Shown here in pieces: positions 1 through 28,026 of a stretch of DNA of 29,048 nucleotides. The notes beneath the pieces are model-generated. The model made no database searches, was not told the DNA's origin, and saw only the letters and a program-made list of their open reading frames with translations. Position 1 is the first letter of the stretch. The number at the start of each line of letters is the position of its first letter. The DNA lies in contig JAFTLD010000027.1 in NCBI GenBank assembly GCA_017452945.1, positions 1-29,048 of the forward strand, in the 5' to 3' direction. The DNA is from Clostridia bacterium. GTDB taxonomy: Bacteria > Bacillota_A > Clostridia > Oscillospirales > CAG-272. Made by a program: the position numbers and the translations under genes.

Positions 1-129
1 GTATTTCGCCAAAGGCGAAATTTCGCTACGCGAGTTTGGGAGGCGAATAGAATATCACTGAAGCCGTAAGGCTTCAATATCACTATTGCGACAGCAATAA
101 TATCACTCCGACGCAGTCGGAATACCACT
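1..129. repeat. Mini-hairpin/AATATCACT repeat cluster 1
   Basis: Linker copies AATATCACT lie at 51-59, 76-84 and 99-107, and a one-mismatch copy AATACCACT at 121-129. Between them are perfect short hairpins: GAAGCC/GGCTTC (60-75), ATTGC/GCAAT (85-98) and CCGAC/GTCGG (108-120). Before the first linker are ATTTCGCC/GGCGAAAT (3-21) and TCGC/GCGA (23-33). All linkers point the same way. No open frame of quality overlaps the cluster. It is the same family as clusters 2 to 5 of this window. Confidence 0.85.
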
Positions 130-143
130 ATTACAGCAAAAAT

Positions 144-196
144 GAGAGAGAGCTTTGCGAAATTTCACTTCCGCATAACTCTCTCTTCTTCTTTTT
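144..196 (+). terminator. Probable intrinsic terminator of a gene left of the window
   Basis: GAGAGAG at 144-150 can pair with CTCTC near 181, with an inner GCG/CGC pairing. The stem is followed by a pyrimidine-rich tail ending in TTTTT (192-196). It closely resembles the terminator at 20362-20400, which also borders a repeat cluster. The gene it would serve lies outside the window. Confidence 0.5.
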
Positions 197-391
197 ACCG
201 CTAATTCATCAGCCCTTCTTTTCAAAAAAACGGACGGACGCGTGATGCGACACGCATTGCAGAACAGCCGTTCGGTACGACATGCATGTCTATCGGAAAA
301 ATAGACAAAATAGTTTTGAAAAATTGGCGCGAAATTCTCAACCGTAGTGCTTTTCACGAAATATCTCGTCAAAAATCGTCAACTTTGCTAA
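197..391. other. Intergenic stretch with no supported gene
   Basis: Short frames cross this stretch on both strands (for example 286-645 plus and 103-372 minus). They have no ribosome site, show no recognisable domain, and run through a promoter, a terminator or a repeat. A small GCGTG/CACGC inverted repeat lies near 239-254. Nothing else can be supported. Confidence 0.5.
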
Positions 392-420
392 TTTACAAAA
401 CGCGCTTGATGCGGTATAAT
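392..420 (+). promoter_or_regulatory. Sigma-A promoter of candidate ncRNA
   Basis: TTTACA (392-397), a 17-bp spacer and TATAAT (415-420) match the housekeeping consensus at 11 of 12 positions. No ribosome site or plausible start codon follows within the next 100 bases. A strong terminator closes the unit at 577-608, so the promoter most likely drives a non-coding RNA. Confidence 0.7.
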
Positions 421-426
421 ATTCTT

Positions 427-608
427 GCTCGACGGAAGCAGTCGTTCCGTCGCCGAGTGCAGCTCAAGCCGGACTTTGTGGAATATCAATCTCATGATGT
501 CAAGCGTGCAAAGACGCCAAATGTTGTACTCACTGCGCTGTTCGCACCGTGCGTTCTTCGCGGACAGACATGGAAGCGGGATCGGTTTATGCCGATTCCG
601 TTTTTTTT
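427..608 (+). ncRNA. Candidate structured small RNA, family not identified
   Basis: The unit runs from just after a near-consensus promoter to a terminator with eight T residues, giving a transcript of about 180 nt. Visible structure: a 5' hairpin GACGGAA/TTCCGTC (about 431-451) extended by CTC/GAG; a small GCG/CGC hairpin near 504-516; CCGTG/CGCGG near 547-563; and a possible long-range pairing of CATGATGTC (493-501) with GACAGACATG (563-572). The size resembles 6S RNA, but the 5' and 3' ends do not form the closing stem expected of 6S. I do not see the SRP GGAAGGAAGCAG loop or tmRNA signatures. The 64-codon frame at 425-619 has no ribosome site and reads through the terminator, so coding is unlikely. 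Confidence 0.55.
577..608 (+). terminator. Intrinsic terminator of candidate ncRNA
   Basis: GGGATCGG (578-585) pairs with CCGATTCC (592-599) with one G-U wobble, and an outer C-G pair (577/600) extends it. Eight T residues follow at 601-608. Confidence 0.8.
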
Positions 609-676
609 GTGCTTTTTGAAAATATTATATTATATTTGTAAATAAACCTTGAAAGGTATGGCTTTTCGGGCAAGTT

Positions 677-687
677 TGTGCTATAAT
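677..687 (+). promoter_or_regulatory. Extended -10 promoter of lon
   Basis: TTGTGCTATAAT (676-687) has a perfect -10 (682-687) with the extended TG dinucleotide. No good -35 lies 17 bp upstream, which is usual for extended -10 promoters. A second TATAAT at 698-703 is an alternative. No CIRCE or CtsR-like operator was recognised, so no heat-shock control can be claimed. Confidence 0.55.
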
Positions 688-744
688 GCTAAGTTGATAT
701 AATATTGTTATACCGCATTACCCCGTTTATGAAAGGAAATTCTC

Positions 745-3186
745 ATGTCAGGATATATAGAAAGAGCCGAGAGCATGACCATGCCCGTGATCGCTTTGCG
801 CGGCATTGTCGCTTTTCCCGGCGCAACCTTGAATTTTGATATTGCCGAGGATAGCTTTGGCTCGGCACAAGCGGCAAAGCTTGCCGCACAAGGCTCACTT
901 CCCGTACTGCTGGTTTCGCTTCGCGACCCTGCAGAGCCGGACAGCGGCGAGCCCTCCCTCTCCAAGCTGTACCGCGTTGGTACGGTTGCCAAGATCAGAC
1001 AGCTGGTCAAGTCGGGGGACGGTCAGAACCGCGCCATTGCCGTGGGTATGACGCGCGGCATGATCACTGCCCTGCACAACACGGATGAGGCAACCTACGC
1101 TGACGTTATGTGCAAATCCTACGTCCTTAAGGACAACGGCGGCATTCGTGCCGAGGCATATATGCGCAGAGCCCTTACCTCCATGGAGCGCGTTGTGCGT
1201 CACCTGCCCGCCTCCTCCGAGGAGATCATGCATGCAGCGCGTGCCATCAACGATCCCGGTGTGTTGGCGGACATGATCGCGGCCAACGTGCTGATCCGTC
1301 CCGAGGATAAGCAGACCGTATTGGAGTGTTTTGATCCCATGATCCGCATCGAAACCGTCACGCTCATGCTGGATCACGAGGCTGAAATTTTAGAATGCGA
1401 CGCCATGATCAACGCGCGTGTGCGCGAGCGCATTGCAAGACACCAAAAGGAATACTACATGCGTGAGCAGATCCGCACGCTGCAGGAGGAGCTTGGCGAG
1501 GGCGACAACGAGATTTACGAAAACAAGATGCGCATCGCACGCGCACATCTGCCCGAAGAGGTGGAGAAAAAGCTGAACAAGGAAAACGACCGCCTTTCCC
1601 GTACGCCCTTCGGCTCTGCCGAGGCGGGAGTGCTGGAGAATTATCTGGACGTTTGCCTTTCCCTGCCTTGGAATAAAACCACCAAGGACCGCGTGGACAT
1701 TGCCGCTGCCAAAAAGATTTTGGACGCAGACCACGACGGTCTTGACAAGGTCAAGGAGCGCATTCTGGAATTTTTGGCTGTCAAGCAGCTTTCCCCCGAT
1801 CTGAAGAACCAGATCATTTGTCTTGTCGGCCCTCCCGGTGTGGGTAAGACCTCGATCGCTGCCTCTGTCGCACGTGCCATGAAGCGCAAGTACGTACGCG
1901 TTTCTCTTGGCGGTGTGCGTGACGAGGCTGACATCCGAGGTCACCGCAAGACCTACATCGGTGCCATGCCCGGCAGAATCATTGACGCGGTATCCCGCGC
2001 AGGCGTACGCAATCCGCTCATTCTGCTTGATGAAATCGACAAGCTCTCGACAAGTGCGCACGGTGATCCCTCCTCTGCTATGCTGGAGGTACTGGATCCC
2101 GAGCAGAACAAATTCTTCCGCGACCACTTTGTTGAGCTGCCCTTCGATCTTTCCGACTGTCTGTTCATCGCCACGGCCAACACGCTGGAAACCGTGCCGC
2201 GTCCTTTGATCGACCGCATGGAGATCATTGAACTGAAAACCTACACCAAGAGTGAAAAGCGCAGCATTGCAAAAAATCATCTGATAAGCAAGCAGCTTGG
2301 CCGCCACGGCCTGAACAAACGCACCGTGAAGATCACGGATGCCGCAGTGGACGAGCTGATCGAATACTATACCCGTGAGGCCGGTGTGCGTAACTTAGAG
2401 CGCGCGATTTCCGATCTTTGCCGCAAGGCAGCAAAAAAGCTGATCGAAGAAAAGGTCAAGCGCGTCACGATCGACGCTGCAGACATTGCCGGCTATCTCG
2501 GCCCGCGCAAGCGTCTGCCCGATGCCATCTCGCCTGTCGACCTTGTCGGTGAGGTCAACGGTCTTGCATGGACAGAAGTGGGCGGTGACGTGCTGCGCGT
2601 GGAGGTTGCCATCACGGACGGCACGGGAAAGCTGGAGCTGACAGGCTCGCTTGGCGACGTAATGAAGGAGAGTGCCAAGGCAGCGCTGACCTGGGTACGC
2701 TCTGTTGCAAGCACGTGGGACATTCCTTCCGATTTCTATACCAAAAAGGACATTCATATTCACGTCCCCGAGGGCGCTGTTCCCAAGGACGGTCCCAGCG
2801 CGGGCGTGACCATGGCGACAGCCATGATCAGTGCGCTGACAGGCATCCCCGTCAAGCGCAACGTTGCCATGACGGGCGAGATCACGCTGCGCGGCAGAGT
2901 GCTTGCCATCGGCGGCCTGAAAGAAAAATCCCTTGCAGCCTTTGCAGCCGGTGCAGATACCGTTTGCATCCCCGCGGACAATCTGCGTGACCTTTGGGAG
3001 CTTGATCCCGAGGTCAGGGAAAACGTCAAGTTTATCCCCTGCAGCCGTATAGAGGACGTATTGGCTACAGCCCTTGTGCAGTCTGAGGCATCCGTGTCGG
3101 CTGCCCGGACTCCCGACATTCCCGATTACATTCCCATGACCGAGCATGCACACCGCATGCCCGCGACATCATTCAAAGAGGTATAA
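745..3186 (+). CDS. lon: ATP-dependent protease Lon
   Basis: This is a cytosolic AAA+ serine protease that unfolds and degrades damaged or regulatory proteins. The 813-residue product has the full LonA layout: an N-terminal substrate-recognition domain (about 1-200), a helical linker, an AAA+ module with Walker A GPPGVGKT (from residue 362) and Walker B LILLDEID (D429 first acidic residue), and a C-terminal protease domain. The catalytic dyad is visible as Ser685 in DGPSAG and Lys728 in GGLKEK, 43 residues apart as in E. coli Lon (S679/K722). The ATG at 745 is chosen because GAAAGGA (731-737) precedes it and the N-terminal domain starts at once. The C-terminal 25 residues or so (after about 790) are a low-complexity extension. 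The gene is followed 2 bases later by engB, the same lonA-ysxC order as in Bacillus. Confidence 0.97.
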   Translation: MSGYIERAESMTMPVIALRGIVAFPGATLNFDIAEDSFGSAQAAKLAAQGSLPVLLVSLRDPAEPDSGEPSLSKLYRVGTVAKIRQLVKSGDGQNRAIAVGMTRGMITALHNTDEATYADVMCKSYVLKDNGGIRAEAYMRRALTSMERVVRHLPASSEEIMHAARAINDPGVLADMIAANVLIRPEDKQTVLECFDPMIRIETVTLMLDHEAEILECDAMINARVRERIARHQKEYYMREQIRTLQEELGEGDNEIYENKMRIARAHLPEEVEKKLNKENDRLSRTPFGSAEAGVLENYLDVCLSLPWNKTTKDRVDIAAAKKILDADHDGLDKVKERILEFLAVKQLSPDLKNQIICLVGPPGVGKTSIAASVARAMKRKYVRVSLGGVRDEADIRGHRKTYIGAMPGRIIDAVSRAGVRNPLILLDEIDKLSTSAHGDPSSAMLEVLDPEQNKFFRDHFVELPFDLSDCLFIATANTLETVPRPLIDRMEIIELKTYTKSEKRSIAKNHLISKQLGRHGLNKRTVKITDAAVDELIEYYTREAGVRNLERAISDLCRKAAKKLIEEKVKRVTIDAADIAGYLGPRKRLPDAISPVDLVGEVNGLAWTEVGGDVLRVEVAITDGTGKLELTGSLGDVMKESAKAALTWVRSVASTWDIPSDFYTKKDIHIHVPEGAVPKDGPSAGVTMATAMISALTGIPVKRNVAMTGEITLRGRVLAIGGLKEKSLAAFAAGADTVCIPADNLRDLWELDPEVRENVKFIPCSRIEDVLATALVQSEASVSAARTPDIPDYIPMTEHAHRMPATSFKEV

Positions 3187-3188
3187 TC

Positions 3189-3803
3189 ATGGCTTTACAA
3201 ACCCAGAACTCCCAGCTGCAAATCAGCGCGGGACTTGCCAAGCAATTCCCCACCAATCCCATTCCGCAGGTTGCCTTTTCCGGGCGCTCCAACGTGGGCA
3301 AAAGCTCTTTGCTCAACACGCTGCTGGGCAGAAAATCGCTGGCACGCGTTTCATCCGCGCCCGGCAAGACCATCACGGTCAATTTTTACAACGTAGATAA
3401 AAAGCTGTTCCTTGTTGACCTGCCCGGCTACGGCTTTGCAGCCCGCAACCCCGCAGACAAGGAAAAATGGTCGGCTCTGACCGACGGCTATTTCACCAAC
3501 AACCCCAACGTTGACCTGCTCTGCCTTGTGCTGCAGCTGGTGGACAGCCGCGTAGGGCTGACGCGTGACGACGAGATGATGGTGGATTTTCTCAATCAAA
3601 GCGAGATCCCCTATGCCATCGTGGCCACCAAGGTGGATAAGCTCAACAAAACCGAACGCGAAAAGAGCCTTGCCGCGCTTTGCTCTCATCCGCTCATTGC
3701 CGATGGCACACCCATCATTCCCTTCTCCTCCCTGAAGGGCGAGGGAAAGAGTGAAGTCTGGAAGGTGATCTGCGCACACGCAGACCTGCCAACACCGAAC
3801 TGA
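3189..3803 (+). CDS. engB: Ribosome biogenesis GTPase EngB/YsxC (YihA family)
   Basis: The product is a small GTPase needed for late assembly of the 50S ribosomal subunit. Its 204 residues match the family length of about 195-210. The G1 loop GRSNVGKSS is at residues 32-40, G3 DLPGYGFA follows in the switch II region, and G4 TKVDK is present near residue 158. The start ATG lies two bases after the lon stop, and its ribosome site (AGAGG, 3177-3181) is inside the end of lon, so the two are translated from one transcript. The stop codon is embedded in a long hairpin (3800-3844), with a repeat cluster right behind it. Confidence 0.96.
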   Translation: MALQTQNSQLQISAGLAKQFPTNPIPQVAFSGRSNVGKSSLLNTLLGRKSLARVSSAPGKTITVNFYNVDKKLFLVDLPGYGFAARNPADKEKWSALTDGYFTNNPNVDLLCLVLQLVDSRVGLTRDDEMMVDFLNQSEIPYAIVATKVDKLNKTEREKSLAALCSHPLIADGTPIIPFSSLKGEGKSEVWKVICAHADLPTPN

Positions 3804-3844
3804 TGCCTGCGCTGCATGCCTGCGCTGCATGCAGCGGGCATCAG
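3800..3844 (+). repeat. Long hairpin and tandem duplication at the engB stop codon
   Basis: CTGATGCC (3800-3807) plus CGCTGCATG pair with CATGCAGCG and GGCATCAG (ending 3844), leaving a 2-nt bulge. The left arm contains the 13-mer ATGCCTGCGCTGC twice in tandem, from 3802 and 3817. The engB TGA (3801-3803) is part of the stem. There is no T-tract, so it is not a standard terminator. It may protect the 3' end or begin repeat cluster 2. Confidence 0.65.
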
Positions 3845-3845
3845 T

Positions 3846-3970
3846 AGTGATATATTTCGCCCATGGCGAAATGTGATATTTTGCTGTCGCAAAGTGATAT
3901 TCGCGCTATGCGCGAGTGATATGTTTCGCTGCGCGAAACGCTATGGTAGAAATTTGCCCGTGGGCAATTT
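3846..3970. repeat. Mini-hairpin/AGTGATATT repeat cluster 2
   Basis: Linkers (AGTGATAT or TGTGATATT) occur at 3846, 3872, 3893 and 3915. They alternate with hairpins ATTTCGCC/GGCGAAAT, TTTGC/GCAAA, TCGCGC/GCGCGA and GTTTCGC/GCGAAAC (to 3939). A further hairpin, AAATTTGCCC/GGGCAATTT, lies at 3950-3970 just upstream of the lysA ribosome site. All linkers point opposite to those of cluster 1. Confidence 0.85.
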
Positions 3971-4000
3971 TCAATTTAATCGTATTTTTGAGGTATTATT

Positions 4001-5320: not shown

Positions 5321-5325
5321 ATATT

Positions 5326-6036: not shown

Positions 6037-6060
6037 TCTTAACTTTTTTGGCGGTATAGT

Positions 6061-7514: not shown

Positions 7515-7552
7515 TTGACCGTTTGGTAATTTCCAAAGGAAAGGAGGATGCT

Positions 7553-8341: not shown

Positions 8342-8369
8342 ATACACATATATGAAAGGAACTGTCAGT

Positions 8370-8825: not shown

Positions 8826-8831
8826 GACATA

Positions 8832-8883
8832 CTCCCCTTTCAAGACTCGTATACTGTAATAATACGAGCTGTGATATGGGGGA
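8832..8883 (+). promoter_or_regulatory. Hairpin in the ytfJ-dacF gap that may mask the dacF ribosome site
   Basis: CTCGTAT (8846-8852) pairs with ATACGAG (8862-8868). The flanking TCCCC (near 8832-8836) can pair with GGGGGA (about 8878-8883), which is the dacF ribosome site. This would place the ribosome site in a stem. No T-tract follows, so it is not a terminator. The regulatory effect is inference. Confidence 0.35.
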
Positions 8884-8886
8884 ATT

Positions 8887-12096: not shown

Positions 12097-12123
12097 TTCA
12101 TTATTAACCACATAATACGTTTT

Positions 12124-12168
12124 ACGGGGCTGCGTCAGTAATTGACACAGCCCCGTGCTTTATTATTT
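12124..12168. terminator. Terminator between convergent genes
   Basis: ACGGGGCTGCGTCA (12124-12137) pairs with TGACACAGCCCCGT (12143-12156), with one mismatch, around a 5-nt loop. The following T-rich tail favours the plus direction. On the minus side the stem also lies just beyond the stop of the acyl-CoA ligase and may serve both. Confidence 0.75.
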
Positions 12169-17673: not shown

Positions 17674-17712
17674 CATCATGTGAAAAGTTTTCGACAATAC
17701 ATGCACCGATCA

Positions 17713-17741: not shown

Positions 17742-17786
17742 TTATGCTGTATGGGTATATCAAATGAACATACGGAGGTAAAAATA

Positions 17787-18788: not shown

Positions 18789-18820
18789 TCCACAAATAAA
18801 GTGTTATAAGGAGAAATGTC

Positions 18821-20308
18821 ATGCGTTACCGTCTTTTAGCGTTGCTTTTAGTAGCCCTGTTACTTCTCCCCTGCCTTTGCGCATGCGCCAACACGGGCGT
18901 TGAGGATCCTGCTGAATCTACAAACGAAGTTGAAACCGAATTCGATCCCTTTGCCGAGCTTGATTACGGCGGAGCGGAATTCTGGATCTACACCAGTACC
19001 AACGCTGCCTCGACCGGCATGGGCAATTCCAACTTTATGATCGAGGGTGACGGCGAGCAAGCCGACTCCTCGGACATTGTAGCTTCCGCTGTTTACAAGA
19101 GAAATCTTGATACCGAGGAGCTGCTGGGCATCAATCTCGAATACGTGCAGACTGACCTTGTTTACTCTGCCGTGGCTGACGATATCAAAAAATACGTCAC
19201 TGCAGGATCGGACGAATTCGATCTGATCATCAACGACCTCTTCCCTCTGGCAGGGCTTAGCATCAACGGATATTTCGTGAACACTCTGGATGACAGCTAC
19301 AGCTTTGATTTCGATCAGAACTATTGGTATTCCGACTACATGACTGACGTCAGCTTCATAGAAGGCTATCAGTTCCTGTTGGCAGGTGACTATTTTGCTG
19401 ACATCATCCGAAGCGGCCATTGCCTGATCTACAACAAGAGCCTTTACGAGGACAGATACGGAAATCCTGACGAGCTTTACGACATTGTTTTGAACTATGA
19501 ATGGACGCAGGAAAAAATGCTGGAGCTGATCGACGAAAACTACGTTGACCTCAACGGTAACGGTCAGGCTGATAAGGATGACCGCTACGGTTACGCGATC
19601 TGCGATATCTGGGGCTGTTCGATCCCGCTGATCACTTCGGGTGACTGCAACTACATGGAGCGCGACGCCGAAACCGGAAATCCCATCATTACCATTGATA
19701 ACGAGCGCACCTACACTTTGACAGAAAGCATCTATAATCTGATGTACAGCAAGGGTACGGGAACTTTTAGCGAAGCAGAGCTTTTGGACGTATTTGCACG
19801 TGATCAGGCTTTGATCGTGGGCTACCAAAGACTCGGCTCTCTGGAAAATCTGCGCGGTATGGAAAATGATCTCGGCATCATTCCCTACCCCATGCTTCTG
19901 AAATCGGATCAGCAATACACCACCTCCTCGCACGATACCACCGAGGTTGGTGTGATCATGACCACGGCTATCAACGATATGGAGTATATCAGCACAGTGC
20001 TGGAAGTGCTCAACCGCGAAACCGCAAAAACGGTTATGCCGCAGTATTATGAAACCGCGCTTAAGATCAAGTATACCGACGATCCGCAGGCAGGTGCCAT
20101 GATCGATATCATCCACGACAATTTCCGTAACGTTTTTGAGCTGGCATATGACTCCTCGATCGGCACCCCGATCAAAACGGTTATCTACGGCACAATTGAG
20201 GCAAAATCCTACAACGTAGCCTCCAAGCTGGCCAAGACCACCAAGAGTTGTACCAAGCTGATAAACAAAATGATCGCACAATGCGAAAAGAATTTTGTCG
20301 ACGACTAA
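18821..20308 (+). CDS. Extracellular solute-binding lipoprotein, family 1-like, orphan
   Basis: A 495-residue lipoprotein resembling sugar-type ABC binding proteins. The lipobox is LCAC (Cys22), followed by a short acidic linker. The body has the usual two-lobe pattern: an early VASAVYKRNLDTEELLGINLEYV strand-helix unit, FDLIINDLFPL in the ligand-cleft region and GTFSEAELLDVFARDQALIVG later. DLNGNGQADKDDRYG near residue 243 looks like a calcium-binding loop of the kind common in Clostridial binding proteins. No permease or ATPase gene is adjacent, so it may use distant partners or act as a sensor. It shares a transcript with the upstream lipoprotein. AAGGAG lies about 7 bases before the start, and a terminator and repeat element follow. 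Confidence 0.85.
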   Translation: MRYRLLALLLVALLLLPCLCACANTGVEDPAESTNEVETEFDPFAELDYGGAEFWIYTSTNAASTGMGNSNFMIEGDGEQADSSDIVASAVYKRNLDTEELLGINLEYVQTDLVYSAVADDIKKYVTAGSDEFDLIINDLFPLAGLSINGYFVNTLDDSYSFDFDQNYWYSDYMTDVSFIEGYQFLLAGDYFADIIRSGHCLIYNKSLYEDRYGNPDELYDIVLNYEWTQEKMLELIDENYVDLNGNGQADKDDRYGYAICDIWGCSIPLITSGDCNYMERDAETGNPIITIDNERTYTLTESIYNLMYSKGTGTFSEAELLDVFARDQALIVGYQRLGSLENLRGMENDLGIIPYPMLLKSDQQYTTSSHDTTEVGVIMTTAINDMEYISTVLEVLNRETAKTVMPQYYETALKIKYTDDPQAGAMIDIIHDNFRNVFELAYDSSIGTPIKTVIYGTIEAKSYNVASKLAKTTKSCTKLINKMIAQCEKNFVDD

Positions 20309-20315
20309 AAAACAA

Positions 20316-20639
20316 AAAGAGGCTGAGCCATCGGGCTGGTCAATTAGCGGTCAAAGAAGAAGGGAGAGCTGCGAAAGTATTCGCAAGCTCTCTCTTTTTT
20401 GCATAATATTGGTGATATTCCGACTGCGTCAGAGTGATATTATACGGCTTCGCCGTGTAGTGATATTGTTCGGCTTCGCCTCACAGTGGTATTCTATTCG
20501 CCTTTGTAGCTTTAACTCGCGAAGCGAATATCACTGCCCAAAGGCAATATCACGCGCGTAGTGCACATCACTCGCCACAGGCGAATAGAATCGGGGAGAT
20601 ACTCCGCTCGGAGCATCTCCCCATCGGCTCAGCCTCTTT
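20316..20639. repeat. 324-bp inverted-repeat-bounded mosaic containing repeat cluster 3
   Basis: The ends are a perfect 14-bp inverted repeat, AAAGAGGCTGAGCC at 20316-20329 and its complement at 20626-20639. Inside are a terminator hairpin (20362-20400), linkers AGTGATATT or close variants at 20411, 20433, 20459 and 20485, then linkers in the opposite orientation AATATCAC(T) at 20527 and 20546 and CACATCACT at 20564. Mini-hairpins include ACGGC/GCCGT, GCC/GGC and TCGCC/GGCGA. A long hairpin GGGGAGAT..ATCTCCCC lies at 20593-20622. The element fills the gap between two convergent lipoprotein genes; there is no coding evidence. Confidence 0.8.
20362..20400 (+). terminator. Intrinsic terminator of the solute-binding lipoprotein
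   Basis: GGGAGAGCT plus GCGAA (20362-20375) pairs with TTCGC and AGCTCTCTC (20380-20394), followed by six T residues (20395-20400). It is close in sequence to the hairpin at 144-196. Confidence 0.85.
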
Positions 20640-20640
20640 C

Positions 20641-22065
20641 TTATTGCTCTGCACTCTCTTGAGCAGGATCGTACGGTACGTAGATCTTGAAGATCGGCTG
20701 CATGTCCTCCTCGCTCATATCCAACAAGGACGTCAGAGGCGTCTTGGATACGTTGAAGGCGCGATAATTGAAATCTCCCCACCAAAGCTCATCAATCACG
20801 ATCATGGCCGTATTGGTAGAAGCAGGACGCAAGCTTCCGGCAAGGGCAGCATCCTCAATCCAGCCCTCAGGTCTGTACTGCCACCCCTCGGCAAGCACAA
20901 TGATCGAGCCTGCAGGCAAGGTCTCCTTGGTAAAGATCTGCGTGGAATAGAATTGGTTGGCAAGATCCGAGCCTTGAATACGGTTCCAATGTCTGCCGCC
21001 CGGCTCACAGGCGTGGTAATACCCGCGCACAAATTCGATCTCCAGCTCGTAAAGATCCTCAATGCCGGGCTGTTTGGGGGCCTGGGCGGTGGGAACAGAC
21101 ACGGCAAACGGTGTTTGGACAGCCAGCATAGCCGCCTCAATGGCCAGAGTCTGCTCCGCTTGTGTGATCCCTGCGGGAGCATACGTTACGCCCTCGACCG
21201 ATCTGCCGGTCAGTGTCTGTGCAAATGTCAGTGCTGCAATATAGCGGCCTGTATTGCTCAGATGAAAACCGTCGCGCGTCAAGGTATCTCCGATCCACCC
21301 CGCACGGGCATTCTGGATAGCCGTGCCGCATGGGATCACTTTTTTGATGATCTCCTCGCTCTGTACCTTATCTTGTACTGTCGTGAGAATCTTTTCGTAC
21401 ATGGTCATTTGGTCGCTGTCATATTTGTGAAAGGAACCATGCGTAGAATCCTGCTGATATGCCCAAGTCATATTCCACACGATGTGTGCATCCGGAGCCA
21501 TTTCCGAAAGCAGCGAAAGCAACTCAGGCAGCTTGCGGTAAGTATTGGGCAAGCCGCTGTCGTGGCTGGCTTGCTGAACCGAAATATAGTCCCAGTTTTC
21601 GCTCTTGACCTTCTCGGAAAGCACGTTGCCTTCTGTCACGGACCACGTGCCGCTCGTATTTTCATAGTAAAGATAATCGGGGGTATCCTTCTTAGCATTA
21701 CTTGCATGCGTATTCACCGTGCAGCCGCCAATTGCAAGATTGCCCAGCTTGATCTGTGCTATACCAAGATCCTGTAAAATGCCGTACAGGTACTCCATGC
21801 TGTCCACAGAAAAGCTGTTTCCGATACAAAGGATCTTCAGCACGCCATCCTCATCCCAATCCTTCTCCAAATCCTCCACGGGAGGCTGTTCGGTGGTTTG
21901 TTCGGTGCTGTCGGTTTGCTCGGGCTGTGTTTCGGGTTGCGTTGACGTTTGCTCAGCAGACGCTTGCTCCGATGAAGGCTCATCCGGCTGATTGCAGGCG
22001 TAAAGGGGCAGCAAAAGGCACACGCAAAGTAATAAAAGCATCATGCGGGACATTTGTTTTTTCAA
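20641..22065 (-). CDS. DUF4886 / SGNH-hydrolase-like lipoprotein
   Basis: A 474-residue lipoprotein, probably an esterase or deacetylase acting on surface glycans. The lipobox is LYAC (Cys24), followed by a Gln/Glu/Thr linker to about residue 65. ILCIGNSFSVDSM (from residue 78) gives the block I nucleophile of DUF4886 proteins, and DGFHLSNTGRYIAALTF supplies the Asp-His block V pair. A further beta-rich region of about 130 residues (ELEIEFVRGYYHACEPGG onward) follows the hydrolase core. The TTG at 22065 is chosen as start because AGAGGTGA lies 8 bases upstream and gives a normal MKKQ signal peptide. A GTG at 22074 overlaps that ribosome site, and an ATG at 22053 is too far from it. It lies downstream of pgk-tpiA, with a terminator between. 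Confidence 0.85.
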   Translation of the reverse strand: MKKQMSRMMLLLLCVCLLLPLYACNQPDEPSSEQASAEQTSTQPETQPEQTDSTEQTTEQPPVEDLEKDWDEDGVLKILCIGNSFSVDSMEYLYGILQDLGIAQIKLGNLAIGGCTVNTHASNAKKDTPDYLYYENTSGTWSVTEGNVLSEKVKSENWDYISVQQASHDSGLPNTYRKLPELLSLLSEMAPDAHIVWNMTWAYQQDSTHGSFHKYDSDQMTMYEKILTTVQDKVQSEEIIKKVIPCGTAIQNARAGWIGDTLTRDGFHLSNTGRYIAALTFAQTLTGRSVEGVTYAPAGITQAEQTLAIEAAMLAVQTPFAVSVPTAQAPKQPGIEDLYELEIEFVRGYYHACEPGGRHWNRIQGSDLANQFYSTQIFTKETLPAGSIIVLAEGWQYRPEGWIEDAALAGSLRPASTNTAMIVIDELWWGDFNYRAFNVSKTPLTSLLDMSEEDMQPIFKIYVPYDPAQESAEQ

Positions 22066-22085
22066 TGTGATCACCTCTTTGAATC

Positions 22086-22133
22086 AAATAAAAATCGCAC
22101 TTACGGCTCGCGAATATCCGGAGCCGTAAGTGC
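22086..22133 (-). terminator. Intrinsic terminator of tpiA
   Basis: A perfect 13-bp stem GCACTTACGGCTC/GAGCCGTAAGTGC (22097-22109 and 22121-22133) with, on the minus strand, a T-rich tail at 22086-22096. It leaves only about 20 bases before the next minus-strand start, with its ribosome site inside them. Confidence 0.85.
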
Positions 22134-22145
22134 ATTGGGAATCAT

Positions 22146-22907: not shown

Positions 22908-22925
22908 GTTGTCAATCCTCCCTGA

Positions 22926-24242
22926 TTATTCCTTGTCGCCAAGGCAAGCGATACCGGGCAGCTCCAGGCCTTCCAGGAACTCGAGCGATGCACCGCCGCC
23001 GGTGGAGATGTGAGTGATCTTATCAGCATAGCCGAGCTGCTCGCAAGCTGCTGCACTGTCGCCGCCACCGACAATGGTGGTAGCCTCAGAAGCTGCCAGA
23101 GCCTCTGCTACTGCAATGGTACCCTTTGCAAGGGTGGGGTTCTCGAACACACCCATAGGACCGTTCCAAACAACGGTCTTTGCATTCTTGACAGCCTCTG
23201 CGTACAGAGCCATGGTTGCAGGACCGATGTCAACGCCTTCTCTGTCTGTGGGGATCTTGTCAGCGTCGCAGATCTCAACGTCAACGGGAGCATCAATGGG
23301 ATTGGGGAAATCAGCGATGGTGGTTACGTCGATGGGCAGCAGCAGCTTGACGCCGTTTGCCTCAGCCTTAGCCATCATATCGCGGCAGTAGTCGATCTTG
23401 CTCTCGTCAAGCAGAGACTTGCCAACGCCATAGCCCTTGGCAGCCTGGAAGGTATATGCCATACCGCCACCGATGATCAGGGTGTCAACCTTGGAGAGGA
23501 GGTTGTTGATTACGTTGAGCTTATCGGAAACCTTAGCACCGCCAAGGATTGCAACGAAAGGACGCTCGGGGTTAGCCAGAGCCTTACCCATCACGGAGAT
23601 CTCCTTCTGGATCAGGTAGCCGCAAACTGCGGGCAGACCTGCATGCTGTGCTACGCCTGCGGTAGAAGCGTGTGCGCGGTGTGCGGTGCCGAATGCATCG
23701 TTTACGAAAATCTCAGCAAAGCTTGCAAGCTGCTTTGCGAATTCGGGATCGTTCTTTTCTTCCTTCTTGGTGAAACGGGTGTTCTGCAGCAGAACAATGT
23801 CACCGGGCTTCATAGCGGCAACCTTAGCCTGTGCATCGGGGCCAACGGTATCTTCTGCGAAAACAACGCCGCCGCCAAGCAGCTCGTTCAGCTTATCAGC
23901 GACAACCTGCAGGGAGAACTTCTTGACGTCGCCCTTTGCCTTTTCAAGCGCTGCAGCGGTAGCAGCTTCTCTTTCAGCTTCAGGCAGCTTTTCGATCTTT
24001 GCGATCTCCTTCTTGTCCAGCTTGAGCTCCTTGTCAAACACGTTGTGGGGCTTGCCCATGTGAGAGCAAAGAATAACCATAGCGCCCTGAGCCTTGAGGT
24101 ACTTGATGGTAGGCAGAGCTTCTACGATTCTCTTCTCGGAGGTGATCACACCGTCCTTAACGGGTACGTTGAAGTCGCAACGGACCAGGCACTTCTTGCC
24201 GGAAACGTTGATATCTTCAATATTCATCTTGTTGTAAGTCAT
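22926..24242 (-). CDS. pgk: Phosphoglycerate kinase with an insertion in the N-domain
   Basis: It transfers phosphate from 1,3-bisphosphoglycerate to ADP. Key motifs are all present: [11 protein letters not shown] at 21-31, SHMGKP (usually SHLGRP) near 60-65, [19 protein letters not shown] and the C-terminal GGGDSAAA nucleotide loop. The protein is 438 residues, longer than the usual 390-420. The excess is a charged, Lys/Glu/Ala-rich segment of about 40 residues (roughly 67-108) between SHMGKP and [10 protein letters not shown], where most enzymes have a short loop. The ATG at 24242 is preferred over the upstream frame at 24278 because AGGTGG lies 9 bases before it. It heads the pgk-tpiA operon with its own promoter; gap and eno are not adjacent. 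Confidence 0.97.
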
Positions 24243-24283
24243 GGATTTGTTCCACCTTTCACAATTAATTTTTTCCACCTAAT

Positions 24284-24312
24284 ACTATACCATATTTTGG
24301 ACGCTTTTGCAA
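24284..24312 (-). promoter_or_regulatory. Promoter of pgk-tpiA
   Basis: On the minus strand: TTGCAA (24307-24312), 17 bp, TATAGT (24284-24289), with an extended TG before the -10. Confidence 0.65.
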
Positions 24313-24342
24313 GAGAATTTGCACAAAAATCCAAAAATCGGC

Positions 24343-24378
24343 AAAAACATAAGACAGGGCATATACATTCCCTGTCTT
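24343..24378 (-). terminator. Intrinsic terminator of the 229-residue lipoprotein
   Basis: AAGACAGGG (24351-24359) pairs with CCCTGTCTT (24370-24378). On the minus strand the stem is followed by a T-run (complement of 24343-24347). It sits just upstream of the pgk promoter. Confidence 0.75.
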
Positions 24379-24394
24379 GTTGTGCAATATGGTA

Positions 24395-25084
24395 TTATTC
24401 TGCCTCGGGTTCAACGATCACAAGAGAGAACTTACCGATCTTCTTCTTGTTTTCCTTGCCGTTGATGATGGAAGCGATCTCATACTTGGCAACCTCTTCC
24501 TTGAGGTACTCGTCCTTGATGGGGCTGTCCATCCAAACGCCAACGCCCTCTCCCTGCTCGTCTACACCGTCGCAAACCAGGAGCAGATAGGTGCCTGCGC
24601 CGAACTTGCCTTCCTCATATTCGCAGGTCAGCGTGCTGTTATCTGCAAAATCAACGAATTCATCAAGCTGGAGGGGATTCTTGGAAACGGTGGTTTCGAA
24701 ATCGGTATCCCAAGCAAAGAGCTTGATGTTCAAGCTACCCAGGTCATCACTGTAGCTGGGAGCAGAAACGCTGCCCTCAAACAGGTAACCACCCTCGGGG
24801 ATCACGAAACGAATGCCAACACCCTTATGCTTGGAATCAAGCGCCTGAGGAGACTGGGACTTGTCTTCCCAAACGTCAATATAAACGTCAACCAGATCCG
24901 GGATACCGTCATCAGTGGTTTCCTCTTCGGTGGTGGGCTCTTCGGTGGTAGGCTCTTCGGTAGTGGGAGCTTCAGTCTTTGCAGCAGTGGTGGTTTCCCC
25001 GGAGGGCTTGTCACCTTCATCGCATGCTACGAATACGCAGCACAGCATCAGAGCTGCCAGGATCATTGCGAGAATTCTTTTCAT
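24395..25084 (-). CDS. Lipoprotein with Thr/Glu/Pro linker, unknown function
   Basis: A 229-residue lipoprotein with lipobox FVAC (Cys21) and a tandem linker PTTEEPTTEEPTTEEETT. The remaining ~165 residues form a beta-rich domain with IRFVIPEGGYLFEGSVSAPSY and FGAGTYLLLVCDGVDEQG, reminiscent of pre-peptidase or bacterial surface beta-sandwich domains; no family can be named safely. The signal peptide starts MKRILAMILAALML, nearly the same as that of the surface protein at 11245, which suggests common descent of the leader or linker. AAAGGAG lies 9 bases before the ATG. It has its own promoter and terminator, so it is a single-gene unit. Confidence 0.78.
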   Translation of the reverse strand: MKRILAMILAALMLCCVFVACDEGDKPSGETTTAAKTEAPTTEEPTTEEPTTEEETTDDGIPDLVDVYIDVWEDKSQSPQALDSKHKGVGIRFVIPEGGYLFEGSVSAPSYSDDLGSLNIKLFAWDTDFETTVSKNPLQLDEFVDFADNSTLTCEYEEGKFGAGTYLLLVCDGVDEQGEGVGVWMDSPIKDEYLKEEVAKYEIASIINGKENKKKIGKFSLVIVEPEAE

Positions 25085-25120
25085 GGTATGTAAACTCCTT
25101 TCAAAAGTTATTATGTAGTC

Positions 25121-25149
25121 ATTATAACAGATAAAGGCTGATTTATCAA
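25121..25149 (-). promoter_or_regulatory. Promoter of the 229-residue lipoprotein
   Basis: On the minus strand: TTGATA (25144-25149), 17 bp, TATAAT (25121-25126). It is divergent from the thiT promoter. Confidence 0.75.
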
Positions 25150-25177
25150 GGGGTTTTAGAATTTTTTTGCAAAGTAC

Positions 25178-25206
25178 TTGACAAAATATAAAAACAGTCG
25201 TACAAT
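25178..25206 (+). promoter_or_regulatory. Promoter of the TPP riboswitch-thiT unit
   Basis: TTGACA (25178-25183), 17 bp, TACAAT (25201-25206). Transcription would begin about 20 bases before the aptamer. Confidence 0.8.
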
Positions 25207-25227
25207 ATATGCGAACAACCGCATAAA

Positions 25228-25328
25228 AAATCAGGGGTGCTGACGGAAATCGTGAGTTTCCAACGGCTGAGATGCGCGCAAGCGTGAACCCTTAACCTGA
25301 TACGGATAATACCGGCGTAGGAAGATTT
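25228..25328 (+). ncRNA. TPP riboswitch (THI element)
   Basis: The aptamer senses thiamine pyrophosphate. The conserved parts are in order: AGGGGTGCTGA (from about 25233), CTGAGAT in the pyrimidine-sensor arm (from about 25267), ACCCTTAACCTGAT (from about 25289), and GGATAATACCGGCGTAGGAA near the end. The variable arm GAAATCGTGAGTTTC lies between the first two. Together with the downstream terminator hairpin (25352-25390) and the thiT gene, this is a classic transcriptional off-switch: ligand binding should favour termination. Confidence 0.97.
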
Positions 25329-25351
25329 GCACATACTTGAGATAGGAATCC

Positions 25352-25390
25352 TCAACCGCACGGAGATTTTTCGTGCGGTTGATTTTTATT
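25352..25390 (+). terminator. Riboswitch-controlled terminator
   Basis: TCAACCGCACG (25352-25362) pairs with CGTGCGGTTGA (25372-25382) and is followed by TTTTATTT (25383-25390). It lies between the TPP aptamer and the thiT ribosome site. The antiterminator pairing was not resolved. Confidence 0.85.
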
Positions 25391-25406
25391 TCAAGGAGGA
25401 GGATTT

Positions 25407-26078
25407 ATGAATACCTCACAAAAAACCAAACGGTTGACCGTCAGTGCCATCATGCTGGCTACCGCTGTCATTCTCGCGCTGATCAGCTCACCCATCCCGC
25501 CCCTGCCCTTTGGCGGCAGCTTTACTGTTGCCAGCATGCTGCCCATCGTACTGATCGCCTACATGTACGGCACCAAATGGGGACTTTTTTCCGCGTTCAC
25601 CTACGCGATCATTCAGATCATCATGGACCTGATGCTTGGCAAGGGCTCGACCTTGCTTGCCTATTTTCTGCCCACCAGCGAGGACTTTATGGGCTTTGGC
25701 GTTGCGATCGGCATTTTGATCCTTGACTATTTCGTAGCCTATACCGTACTCGGTCTTGGCGGTGTGCTGCGAAACAAGCTGCCCAAGGTGCCTGCCATTA
25801 TTCTGGGAGTACTGATTGCCCTAGGCGCGCGCTACGCGGTGCATATATGCTCGGGCTTTCTCTTCTTCGCCTCTTGGGCAGAATGGTTCTTTACGCAAGA
25901 GGGCTTTTATGCCATCGGTGACGTAATCCTGAATGCCTTCAGCGGACATTTGCTGTCCATCATTTACTCGATCATCTACAATGGCACCTACATGATCCCC
26001 GAAATCGTGATCACTGCGATCTGCGCTTCGGGCGTGGCGTTCATTCCCTATATCAAGAAATACGACGTCAAGTCTTGA
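25407..26078 (+). CDS. thiT: Thiamine ECF transporter S component ThiT
   Basis: This integral membrane protein binds thiamine and works with the shared ECF energizing module (EcfA/A'/T), whose genes are not in this window. The 223-residue product has about six hydrophobic segments. The family features include GGSFTVASMLPIVLIAYMYGTKWG in the first third and DYFVAYTVLGLGGVLRN in the middle, close to known ThiT sequences. Regulation by the TPP riboswitch just upstream agrees with the assignment. AAGGAGGAGG lies about 4-7 bases before the ATG. The stop codon overlaps the -35 box of the next gene, rnpB. Confidence 0.95.
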   Translation: MNTSQKTKRLTVSAIMLATAVILALISSPIPPLPFGGSFTVASMLPIVLIAYMYGTKWGLFSAFTYAIIQIIMDLMLGKGSTLLAYFLPTSEDFMGFGVAIGILILDYFVAYTVLGLGGVLRNKLPKVPAIILGVLIALGARYAVHICSGFLFFASWAEWFFTQEGFYAIGDVILNAFSGHLLSIIYSIIYNGTYMIPEIVITAICASGVAFIPYIKKYDVKS

Positions 26079-26103
26079 CTTTTTGCCGCCCTTGTGCTAT
26101 AAT
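26075..26103 (+). promoter_or_regulatory. Promoter of rnpB
   Basis: TTGACT (26075-26080, overlapping the thiT stop), 17 bp, TATAAT (26098-26103) with an extended TG. It predicts transcription from about 26109, exactly where the RNA's P1 helix starts. Confidence 0.85.
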
Positions 26104-26108
26104 CGCAC

Positions 26109-26475
26109 TTGCAGCTTAGCTAAACGGCCGCGCCGTATGTTGCCGAAAGGTATTACGGTGAGGAAAGTCCGGGCTTTACAGGGCAAGGGTAACTGATAAC
26201 GTCAGCCGCGGGTAACCGCCGGGAAAGTGCAACAGAAATAAACCGCCATGAAAATGGTAAGGATGGAAAGGCGAGGTAAGAGCTCACCCACTTCTACGGT
26301 AACGTAGACTTGCTGTAAACCCTACCCAAAGCAACACCGTTCGGGGAATGTCTGCCCGACAGCCGCAAGGACCCGATGGGTGGCACGAGCGCAAAACGCT
26401 CGGAGCTTTTTGGTGACAAGAAGCAAAGATAGATGGCCGTTCTCGACAGAACCCGGCTTACAGGCAAAACTGCAA
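26109..26475 (+). ncRNA. rnpB: RNase P RNA
   Basis: This is the catalytic RNA that removes tRNA 5' leaders. The universal core GAGGAAAGTCCGGGCT lies at about 26160-26176, AACAGAAATA at about 26231-26240, and the 3' element ACAGAACCCGGCTTA at 26446-26460. The ends pair as P1: TTGCAG (26109-26114) with CTGCAA (26470-26475), extended by further pairs. The length of about 367 nt is normal. No protein subunit gene is nearby. Whether it is class A or B was not resolved by eye. Confidence 0.97.
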
Positions 26476-26508
26476 AAAAGAACCAACCGCGCGCGGTTGG
26501 TTCTTTTT
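26475..26508 (+). terminator. Terminator of rnpB (34-bp perfect palindrome, extendable to 66 nt)
   Basis: AAAAAGAACCAACCGCG and its complement (26475-26491 and 26492-26508) form a perfect palindrome ending in TTTTT. The outer arms TTACAGGCAAAAC (26458-26470) and GTTTTGCCTGTAA (26511-26523) extend it to 66 nt with small bulges; the left outer arm is also part of mature RNase P RNA. Confidence 0.9.
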
Positions 26509-26525
26509 GCGTTTTGCCTGTAACT

Positions 26526-26633
26526 CTTGCGCAGCAAGAATATCACTCTTAGTTATATTGCCTCGGGCGAGTGATATTGCGCGGCAAACCGCGCAGTGAT
26601 ATTCACCTACGGTGAGTTTTATTCGCTGCGCGA
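26526..26633. repeat. Mini-hairpin repeat cluster 4
   Basis: Linker AATATCACT lies at 26539-26547, then the orientation switches: AGTTATATT (26551), AGTGATATT (26570 and 26595) and a degenerate AGTTTTATT (26615). Hairpins are CTTGC/GCAAG, GCC/GGC, GCGCGG/CCGCGC, CACC/GGTG and TCGC/GCGA. It lies between the rnpB terminator and the promoter of the alcohol dehydrogenase. Confidence 0.85.
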
Positions 26634-26677
26634 GTTGTGTGTGTTTTTACAAATTTCATGAAAATTCCTGATTTCCC

Positions 26678-26706
26678 TTGCAAGCCCGGCGTTTTTGTGC
26701 TATAAT
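26678..26706 (+). promoter_or_regulatory. Promoter of the alcohol dehydrogenase
   Basis: TTGCAA (26678-26683), 17 bp, TATAAT (26701-26706) in the extended context TGTGCTATAAT also seen before lon and rnpB. Confidence 0.75.
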
Positions 26707-26742
26707 GTATTTGTAGATTTATGCCAACAGGAGCAAAACCCC

Positions 26743-27888
26743 ATGAAAGAATTCCACATCGGTACACAAATATATTTCGGAGAATCGGCACTGGACAGAC
26801 TGTCGCAGATCAACTTTGATCGCGTCATCATTCTTGCCGACCCCTTTGTCGTGACCTCGGGGCTGATCGAGCACGTGACCAAGCGTCTTGACAGCGCGGG
26901 CGTTTCCTATTCCCTGTTTACCGATATCGTGCCCGATCCTCCTGTTGATAAGGTGATTGCAGGCGTAGCAGAGGTGCTTCGAGGCAAATATCCATGTATG
27001 ATCGCCATCGGCGGTGGCTCTGCCATCGATACCGCCAAAGCTGTTCGTAAATTCGCAGGTCAGATCGAGCCCGGTTATGCACCCCGCCTGATCGCCATTC
27101 CCACCACGTCGGGTACGGGTAGCGAGGTAACCTCGTTTGCCGTGATCTCCAATCCCGCTGAAGACAAGAAATATCCTCTTTGCGCCGAGGACATGATGCC
27201 CGAAGAAGCCATCCTTGATGAGGTGCTGGTCAAATCGGTTCCTGCAGCCGTAACGGCAGACACAGGTATGGACGTCATGACACACGCAATCGAGGCATAC
27301 GTCAGCACAAACAACAATGAGTTTTCGGGCGCTTTGGCAGAAAAATCGGTAGAAATCTGCGGTCAGTTCCTGATCCGCTCCTGGGCTGATAACAACGACT
27401 CACACGCACGACGCAAGATGCACATCGCGGCATGTCTTGCAGGCATTGCCTTTAATTCCGCTTCACTTGGCTTGGTACACGGTATGGCACACCAGCTTGG
27501 CGCACATTTGCATATTCCGCACGGCAGAAGCTGTGCGCTGCTGCTCCCCTCTCTGATCGAATATAACAGCGGCATTACCACCAGTTCGCGTTCACAGGCC
27601 GAATATCCCCCTTGCGTACGTAAATATTGCAACGTGGCAAGAATTCTTGGCGTGAGCAACTTCAACGAGATCACCACCGTGCGTGCGCTGATCAGTTACG
27701 TGCATTTTCTCTCACAGGAGATGCACATGCCTGCACGCGTGTCCGAAGCGGTCAGCATTTCCCATGAGGAGTATCTTGCATTGGTGGACACAATGGCCGA
27801 GGGCGCCTTGGCAGACTCCTGCACCGCAACCAATCCCCGCGTGCCGACAAAGCAAGAGGTCGTGGAGATATATAAAAGTATTTGGTAA
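26743..27888 (+). CDS. Iron-containing alcohol dehydrogenase
   Basis: An NAD(P)-dependent type III alcohol dehydrogenase, probably reducing an aldehyde in fermentation; the substrate is not clear. The 381-residue protein has the N-terminal dinucleotide-binding domain with IGGGSAIDTAKAV and PTTSGTGSEVTSFAVIS. The metal-binding C-terminal domain has the ligands in DTGMDVMTHAIEAYVS (Asp, His) and LVHGMAHQLGAHLHIPHG (His residues). The length and order fit the family (butanol or 1,3-propanediol dehydrogenase-like). The ATG at 26743 has AGGAG 10 or so bases upstream; the in-frame ATG at 26695 lies before the -10 box and cannot be used. It is a single-gene unit with its own promoter and palindromic terminator. 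Confidence 0.93.
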   Translation: MKEFHIGTQIYFGESALDRLSQINFDRVIILADPFVVTSGLIEHVTKRLDSAGVSYSLFTDIVPDPPVDKVIAGVAEVLRGKYPCMIAIGGGSAIDTAKAVRKFAGQIEPGYAPRLIAIPTTSGTGSEVTSFAVISNPAEDKKYPLCAEDMMPEEAILDEVLVKSVPAAVTADTGMDVMTHAIEAYVSTNNNEFSGALAEKSVEICGQFLIRSWADNNDSHARRKMHIAACLAGIAFNSASLGLVHGMAHQLGAHLHIPHGRSCALLLPSLIEYNSGITTSSRSQAEYPPCVRKYCNVARILGVSNFNEITTVRALISYVHFLSQEMHMPARVSEAVSISHEEYLALVDTMAEGALADSCTATNPRVPTKQEVVEIYKSIW

Positions 27889-27918
27889 AAAGAGAACCGA
27901 CGCGTCGGTTCTCTTTTT
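27887..27918. terminator. Bidirectional terminator, 32-bp perfect palindrome
   Basis: AAAAAGAGAACCGACG (27887-27902) is followed directly by its exact complement (27903-27918), ending in a T-run on either strand. It begins inside the stop codon of the alcohol dehydrogenase and separates it from the convergent lipoprotein. Confidence 0.9.
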
Positions 27919-27920
27919 TC

Positions 27921-28026
27921 ACTCGGTGCAGCCGAATATCACTCGCGCAGCGAATATCACTTGGACGAAGTCCAAATATCACTCGCCGCAGGCGAATATC
28001 ACTGATCTCTGCCCACGGCAGAGATC
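27921..28026. repeat. Mini-hairpin repeat cluster 5, overlapping a coding end
   Basis: Four perfect AATATCACT linkers lie at 27935, 27953, 27975 and 27995. Hairpins between them are CGC/GCG, TGGAC/GTCCA and CGCC/GGCG, and the last is GATCTCTGCC/GGCAGAGATC (28004-28026). The last linker contains the stop codon of the minus-strand lipoprotein (27999-28001), and the last hairpin lies within its coding sequence. Confidence 0.88.

Follow-up and report, generated by a model that had tools for sequence, protein, structure and literature searches.

What keeps the arms of short hairpins complementary when their sequence changes from one hairpin to the next and the sequence joining them stays the same? 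The question is raised by five intergenic clusters in a 29,048-nucleotide stretch of DNA from a Clostridia bacterium of the order Oscillospirales (contig JAFTLD010000027.1 of assembly GCA_017452945.1), referred to here in its whole length as the window. A sequence-only reading had described them as variable self-complementary units joined by a constant linker, AATATCACT, and knew of no named family that fits. We find that the clusters match the Rfam family Gut-1 (RF01706) and that arrays of this kind are linked to genes for proteins of the Pfam family PF05635 (23S_rRNA_IVP). Judged from sequence comparisons, the clusters are probably dispersed non-autonomous copies, some of them like miniature inverted-repeat transposable elements (MITEs) and others single-module derivatives, of a family of PF05635-linked mobile DNA elements.

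Hairpin arrays of the Gut-1 family

At up to one mismatch, AATATCACT occurs 28 times in the window (14 times exactly), against 5.27 matches expected and a maximum of 13 in 100 shuffles; 23 of the matches lie in the five intergenic clusters and five are scattered singles. Twelve linker-bounded units lie between intact ATWTCAC cores of the same orientation. Eleven of these (92%) form a stem of at least 4 bp, compared with a mean of 5.4% and a maximum of 25% when the same units are shuffled. The negative control consisted of 97 viral-contig stretches chosen purely by their linker-pair pattern. In the first 80 of these loci a stem of at least 5 bp was present in 4 of 82 linker pairs, two of them from one contig. 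With all 97 loci taken together, stems of at least 4 bp were found in 15% of 78 units (shuffles: mean 5.4%, maximum 12.8%), a rate slightly above that of the shuffles and far below that of the window. The clusters of the sequence-only reading are real and not due to chance, and its pattern, in which the linker is constant and the self-complementary units vary, is confirmed as specific to these genomes. Selection on the hairpin itself, or a mechanism that generates hairpins, is likewise supported. That the arms differ almost every time is correct within a single array, from slot to slot; homologous copies elsewhere repeat these slots, with compensated arm changes. The array structure also needs correction in the compound clusters, which comprise two modules with oppositely oriented linkers.

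An Rfam scan places cluster 5 (Table 1) in Gut-1 above the 50-bit gathering score of the covariance model (27931–28004, 58.0 bits, E 3e-9). The remaining clusters score below it: 48.9 bits for cluster 2 (3845–3927), 39.4 for cluster 1 (47–130), 36.9 for cluster 4 (26550–26627), and 36.8 and 26.4 for two segments of cluster 3 (20523–20593 and 20410–20471). The best scores of these four correspond to E values of 6e-7 to 7e-4, and one cluster in five reaches the gathering score. The layout is that of the Gut-1 tandem hairpins, with GTGATAT in place of the GUGAAAU linkers. On scores and layout together we assign all five clusters to the Gut-1 sequence family, so that a named family does fit; what had already been described is the sequence family and not its explanation. 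A 2010 listing of noncoding RNA motifs gives Gut-1 as ‘human gut only’ (PMC2864571). Open-licence PubMed Central literature, supplements apart, held no further work on Gut-1 among the matches listed.

By LysA, the nearest relatives are metagenome-assembled genomes (MAGs) labelled Oscillospiraceae or Clostridia bacterium, represented by loci L001 (87%), L002 (85%) and L003 (83%). Gut-1 matches number 22, 12, 23 and 11 in G001–G004, the genomes of L001–L004. A survey of 245 genomes of the order, in which at most 18 candidates were scored per genome and kinship was ignored, gave Gut-1 in 105 genomes when matches below the cut-off are included and over the cut-off in 87. By eye, many of the survey matches are less than 200 bases from the end of a contig, a pattern that assemblies broken by near-identical copies would produce.

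Three layouts were defined by eye. Class I, or compound, elements consist of a terminal hairpin, a first module in which GTGATAT linkers join up to four hairpins, a centre, a three-hairpin module with ATATCAC linkers, an AGAGAG terminator-like hairpin and a right end; cluster 3 belongs to this class, and cluster 1 is the right part of another such element. Class II elements are single modules after a stop codon, several of which precede a terminator. Class III elements contain two modules with GTGAAAT/ATTTCAC linkers and lie directly after a terminator, often that of a tRNA gene. A search with window positions 20000–22000 returned many class I copies at non-orthologous places in G001–G003; as judged from these matches, the two-module form is a dispersed repeat. 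Thirteen compound copies with both ends range in length from 218 to 355 (278–355 in 12 of them), and their flanks are perfectly complementary over 16, 16, 15, 15, 15, 14, 13, 12, 10, 10, 6, 4 and 2 bp. With flanks swapped between copies, mean complementarity falls to 3.79 and a value of at least 7 is reached in 6.4% of 156 swaps. The long complementary flanks indicate that 10 of the 13 copies occupy the loop of a terminator hairpin.

Pairing between left and right linkers was considered as the cause of linker constancy and rejected: by eye, single left linkers deviate (GTGTTAT, GTGGTAT) with the right side unchanged. One class I copy (L191, about 3600–3850, on contig C3 of G002) has flanks that resemble halves of different terminators, which may reflect recombination between two copies or a misassembly. 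A leader-like motif, GGGGTATGGGC..GCCC followed by a CTTTGTAATACAAAG-type hairpin and GCGAAACTGGCGATAAA, was seen in L310–L334 (G001–G003 and G249) and at the right end of some class I copies. Elements have it at their right ends and small, unrelated genes have it in their 5' regions; followed by eye, the motif led to no transposase.

The sequence-only reading had proposed comparing orthologous intergenic regions for gain or loss of units. Cluster 2, between engB and lysA, is present in the window and in L002, where two of its four hairpins have changed, and absent from L001, with both flanking genes aligned. Cluster 4, also aligned on both sides, is absent from G001, and G002 has an array with a different linker, TCATAAC. 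At the site of cluster 5, G002 retains a remnant without an array (both sides aligned) and G001 has none, the left side alone being comparable. No array lies next to lon in L001 or L002 at the position of cluster 1, for which the lon side alone was compared. At cluster 3, plain terminators follow the left-hand gene in G001, G002 and G003; the next gene there is tpiA, a different right-hand neighbour, which makes this comparison one-sided. The gene to the right of cluster 3 (window 20641–22074) was not found next to tpiA in any of the three genomes, so that in this stretch the element is not the sole difference between the window and its sisters. G249 has a gene-bearing element after tRNA-Trp, of which G001 has no copy and G002 a remnant, and the window itself has one empty site (Table 1). 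As far as these alignments reach, each of the five clusters lacks a counterpart in one sister species or more. The terminators diverge in sequence from species to species, and none of the comparisons is therefore a same-flank strain pair.

Linkage to PF05635 genes and the type of hairpin loop

In a Pfam scan of 96 of the 236 open reading frames (ORFs) adjoining arrays, the neighbours are mostly housekeeping genes, but PF05635 recurs, matched by three of the 96, two of which are one gene in overlapping loci. The 10 families matched by at least two of these ORFs include no transposase and no Y1 family; one phage integrase and 82 further families with one ORF each were also found. PF05635 is present in 116 of the 245 genomes, in 90 of the 105 with Gut-1 and 26 of the 140 without (odds ratio 26, p 4e-27). 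This test of phyletic co-occurrence ignores kinship, as do those for Y1_Tnp and PF00078 given below. Physical linkage between array and gene is free of the kinship problem. In 120 loci chosen by PF05635 alone, a strict two-module array lies within 460 nt upstream of the gene in 57, compared with 8 of 3000 random windows, and many of the other 63 have, by eye, looser arrays or short inverted-orientation tandem repeats around the gene. A terminator is found just upstream of 30 of 55 PF05635-linked arrays (34 of 3000 random windows). For 36 of 56 arrays a tRNA gene lies upstream at a distance of at most 260 nt, as it does for 1 of 1000 random windows.

Two loci of G001, L329 and L332, combine the terminal hairpin, both modules and a PF05635 gene. 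The L329 array is 87.6% identical to window positions 4–124 (L329 79–196), 73.8% to 20412–20590 and 75.3% to 27935–28004; no PF05635 gene lies inside the window. The L329 protein, P0001, matches Pfam PF05635 with E 3e-28 and the solved chain 2RLD with E 3e-30. The PF05635 protein (IVP/S23) is a small four-helix-bundle protein.

Other arrangements were also seen. In L337–L354, many array-less PF05635 genes lie by eye between inverted short tandem repeats, for example AATGCATAATGCAT upstream and its reverse complement downstream, and in L347 hairpin arrays with a GCTAAAT/ATTTAGC linker were seen on both sides of the gene. The array-adjacent PF05635 gene of L085 (contig C17 of G004) appears disrupted, with one frame matching profile positions 43–105 only.

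Linkers differ among these loci. A simple rule assigned a linker class to 56 of the 120 PF05635 loci and to 13 of 3000 random windows: TGAAG (18), TGAAAT (18), TGATG (9), GAATTG (5), TGATAT (3), GTTATAT (2) and GCTAAA (1). For 55 PF05635 proteins of at least 80 residues, linker class agrees with that of the nearest protein from a different genome in 48 cases (12.9 expected), and in the strict-array subset in 42 of 48 (12.9 expected). PF05635 identity is 0.738 with the same linker and 0.562 with different linkers (permutation p 0.0005). In this set, linker type and protein type travel together. The linker-reading protein considered in the sequence-only reading is plausible on this basis, in the modified form of a protein that reads hairpin plus linker.

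The loops of the hairpins were examined in 156 distinct array hairpins read on the ATWTCAC strand, which contain 91 triloops and 50 tetraloops. GNA accounts for 57 of the 91 triloops and TNC for one; GNNA accounts for 33 of the 50 tetraloops (just 14 of these being GNRA) and TNNC for none. The closing pair is 5'C-G3' in 137 of the 156. Among the 195 terminators of these loci, GNA makes up 2 of 37 triloops and GNNA 16 of 104 tetraloops, 15 of which are GNRA, and background hairpins show GNA in 142 of 1671 triloops. Because the Gut-1 model had led to most of these array units, the loci selected by PF05635 serve as an independent check: there GNA makes up 56 of 96 triloops and TNC none, and stems of at least 4 bp are formed by 65% of the 94 distinct TGAWAT-linked units and by 56% of the 154 that have other linkers (shuffles: 5.5% and 6.4%). 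Loop orientation tracks linker orientation in both modules and hence holds on both DNA strands. Triloops of the d(GNA) type with a C-G closing pair are stable DNA loops, according to the pertinent section of PMC5815330. The argument for a DNA-type hairpin rests on loop composition, and the ‘Gut-1 RNA’ is probably not primarily an RNA.

Weighing the explanations

In the explanation we favour, the fuller members of the family carry two hairpin modules with opposed linkers, followed by the gene for the PF05635 four-helix-bundle protein, and the elements would move. An oligomer of the protein would bind the hairpin–linker units of the linker strand where the DNA is single-stranded or extruded and would drive insertion, by itself or together with host factors, at structured sites such as terminator loops. 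A protein that reads the linker would account for a constant linker, for a constraint on the arms that extends only to pairing, and for the retention of GNA/GNNA loops. The sequences supply Gut-1 identity, dispersal, site differences, terminator position, PF05635 linkage, co-segregation of linker and protein, and DNA-type loops as its basis. More tentatively, PF05635 proteins may drive a new class of mobile DNA without a known transposase, recombinase or reverse transcriptase, in which an oligomer reads arrays of GNA-loop DNA hairpins, along with the linker peculiar to each element, and places the element at hairpins of terminators or rRNA; the ‘Gut-1 RNA’, the linker variants and the 23S rRNA intervening sequences would then be its branches. 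If the favoured explanation is right, one element family common in gut Clostridia has been catalogued in two pieces, an RNA and an orphan protein, and its mark would be DNA hairpin shape with a short linker, not a conserved end sequence. The nature of the Gut-1 ‘RNA’ and the role of the 23S rRNA intervening-sequence (S23) protein become jointly testable.

Several points weigh against the mobile-element explanation. PF05635 was not detected in 15 of the 105 Gut-1 genomes, four of which (G031, G069, G215 and G248) hold at least 10 Gut-1 matches; such genomes may be incomplete assemblies. G002 and G003 are rich in GTGATAT arrays, and the sole PF05635 gene detected there has another linker. We know of no catalytic activity of PF05635. 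The between-species comparisons revealed no excision or insertion event, and clusters 1 and 3 are comparable from one side alone. Long complementary flanks are missing in 3 of the 13 compound copies, and the flanking duplications, seen by eye in most copies, are just 2–3 bp and non-uniform (mostly AT/ATT, once GTG). Single-module copies in 3' untranslated regions (UTRs) are probably transcribed. Folding energies of the 156 hairpins fail to separate DNA from RNA, with the linker strand more stable in 51 and less stable in 10 by DNA parameters and 45 and 12 by RNA parameters. The genome counts are without kinship correction and include Gut-1 matches below the cut-off, and one of 14 named control genomes, that of E. 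coli, also gave such a match.

The Rfam view, that a transcript folds into tandem hairpins and acts as a small RNA (sRNA) or 3'-UTR element, draws on the curation of Gut-1 as ‘Gene; sRNA’, on the compensated arm changes in homologous slots and on RNA folding energies that likewise prefer one strand. It also fits several single-module copies (L194, L195, L200, L203 and others) that by eye follow a stop codon and come before any further terminator or gene, a position that makes transcription probable. We regard a structured noncoding RNA as unlikely, however, because triloops dominate and the GNA loops are on the ATWTCAC strand, which leaves the Rfam sense strand (GUGAWAU) with UNC loops, and because the GNNA loops lack the GNRA preference (14 of 33) of terminators (15 of 16). 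Modules moreover lie on both strands within a single element, a terminator precedes 30 of the 55 PF05635-linked arrays, and the sites are not conserved among sister species. Processing of RNA 3' ends, raised by the sequence-only reading, is disfavoured by the same loops and by the 30 of 55 arrays that sit between terminator and gene, a verdict that excepts the single-module 3'-UTR copies. The arrays lie directly before the gene, 42 of 55 having a -10-like box in between (42% in shuffles), and beside terminators and tRNA genes. Such a position would also suit an array that serves the PF05635 gene as operator or regulatory site, or a host 3'-end insulator that boosts termination or acts as a supercoil sink, spread by other means. 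Many copies have no neighbouring PF05635 gene and occupancy varies among sister species, which makes this quite unlikely.

Template-switch mutation at quasipalindromes, described in the relevant part of PMC7202029, could keep arms paired as a neutral by-product helped by stable DNA loops, with neither function nor mobility, and the DNA-type loops and near-perfect arms suit such a DNA-level process. As a full account it is improbable, as it fails on the constant linker, the coupling of loop and linker orientation in both modules, the dispersal to terminators with complementary flanks and the PF05635 link; quasi-palindrome correction could still act on top of the mobile-element explanation. The sequence-only reading had also named a Y1 transposase of the HUH (histidine-hydrophobic-histidine) type, such as the REP-associated tyrosine transposase (RAYT) that would move repetitive extragenic palindromes (REPs) or bacterial interspersed mosaic elements (BIMEs). 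The clusters resemble such repeats in being intergenic and 3' of genes, with hairpins, a flanking constant motif and inverted pairs, and Y1_Tnp is slightly commoner in genomes with Gut-1 (46 of 105) than in those without (45 of 140), at an odds ratio of 1.65 and p 0.08. Movement by such an enzyme is nonetheless very improbable: this difference is small, Y1_Tnp is missing from 27 of the 50 genomes with at least 10 Gut-1 matches, no Y1 family is among those matched by at least two of the 96 neighbouring ORFs, and the palindrome is not conserved, the arms varying while the linker is kept.

Two further candidates were rejected. A reverse transcriptase acting in trans finds no association, PF00078 being present in 68 of 245 genomes, in 31 of 116 with PF05635 against 37 of 129 without, and less common in the presence of Gut-1 (22 of 105) than in its absence (46 of 140); no PF00078 was found in G001. 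Phage carriage was set aside when viral contigs yielded almost solely chance linker pairs, plasmid and phage record collections not being searched.

Window features and comparison with known systems

The features of the window are collected in Table 1. A bacterial RNase P class A RNA gene lies at 26112–26476, and a thiamine pyrophosphate (TPP) riboswitch at 25223–25340, upstream of the ORF at 25407–26078.

Table 1. Positions of the hairpin clusters, their parts and an empty site in the window
Feature	Positions	Strand	Description
Cluster 1	1–217	+	right-hand part of compound (two-module) element, truncated by window start
Cluster 1 hairpins	3–21, 23–33, 59–76, 84–99, 107–121		
Cluster 1 linkers	51–59, 76–84, 99–107, 121–129		
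Cluster 1 internal AGAGAG/CTCTCT terminator-like hairpin	about 144–193		by eye
Cluster 1 right-end motif	about 198–215		by eye
Cluster 2	3804–3990	-	single module, engB stop to lysA
Cluster 2 hairpins	3854–3872, 3880–3893, 3901–3915, 3923–3939		
Cluster 2 GTGATAT linkers	about 3846, 3873, 3893, 3915		on + strand
Empty site	12097–12165	.	plain terminator, convergent genes; complete compound element inside the terminator in L001, none in L002
Cluster 3	20316–20640	.	complete compound element within terminator hairpin; boundaries by eye
Cluster 3 outer arms	20316–20329 and 20626–20639		14-bp perfectly complementary flanks
Cluster 3 left end	about 20333–20350		by eye
Cluster 3 internal terminator-like hairpin	about 20361–20400		by eye
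Cluster 3 GTGATATT module	20411–20493		by eye
Cluster 3 ATATCAC module	20527–20590		by eye
Cluster 3 terminal hairpin	20593–20622		by eye
Cluster 4	26520–26640	.	array 3' of RNase P RNA terminator; linker orientation switches inside
Cluster 4 hairpins	26525–26539, 26578–26595, 26603–26615, 26623–26633		
Cluster 5	27918–28026	+	single-orientation array 3' of terminator 27890–27915
Cluster 5 hairpins	27923–27935, 27943–27953, 27961–27975, 27983–27995		
Cluster 5 closing hairpin	28004–28026		
Cluster 5 linkers	27935, 27953, 27975, 27995		

REP/BIME repeats with RAYT have a conserved palindrome and a Y1 transposase. The present elements share intergenic hairpins and inverted pairs with them and differ in their variable palindrome and the lack of a clear Y1 association. 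MITEs are short, non-coding, dispersed copies related to a longer gene-bearing element. The same relationship of non-coding copies to a gene-bearing relative is seen here, as are flanking duplications of 2–3 bp in most copies; unlike in MITEs, the longer relative has no known transposase and the ends are hairpin modules in place of simple terminal inverted repeats. The occupancy differences observed are between species. IS1111/IS110 elements and group IIC introns target hairpins or terminators. Structured DNA and terminators as targets are common to them and the present elements, but PF00078 is not associated here, and IS110 was compared by description alone, with no genome search made for it.

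The likeness to Gut-1 lies in hairpins on GUGAAAU-type linkers, matched by the window clusters and by hundreds of places in relatives. Where the passage on Gut-1 in PMC2864571 gives a noncoding RNA from the ‘human gut only’, we find it in MAGs whose sources include the guts of sheep, cattle and deer, with DNA-type loops, site differences between species, a PF05635 link and further linker types. The 23S rRNA intervening sequences, as presented in the parts of PMC4990558 that concern them, carry a PF05635 (S23/IVP) protein and sit in an rRNA helix; they are called selfish there, short tandem repeats precede the ORF, and the protein is given as one of no known function. A protein of this family, in the relatives' elements, and a hairpin location are shared with the present elements. 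The intervening sequences, however, lie inside 23S rRNA and are excised from the RNA by RNase III (same source), unlike the present elements, which lie at terminators and on the 3' sides of tRNA genes, with hairpin arrays and in many copies per genome. By eye, the window clusters and the inspected copies were at terminators, tRNA genes and other intergenic places, none in a 23S rRNA helix. PF05635 also resembles Avd, the accessory protein of diversity-generating retroelements, according to the corresponding passage of PMC10053308; the present elements differ in showing no association with a reverse transcriptase (PF00078 in 31 of 116 PF05635 genomes and 37 of 129 others). Open-licence PubMed Central literature, supplements apart, held no work on PF05635 elements at terminators among the matches listed.

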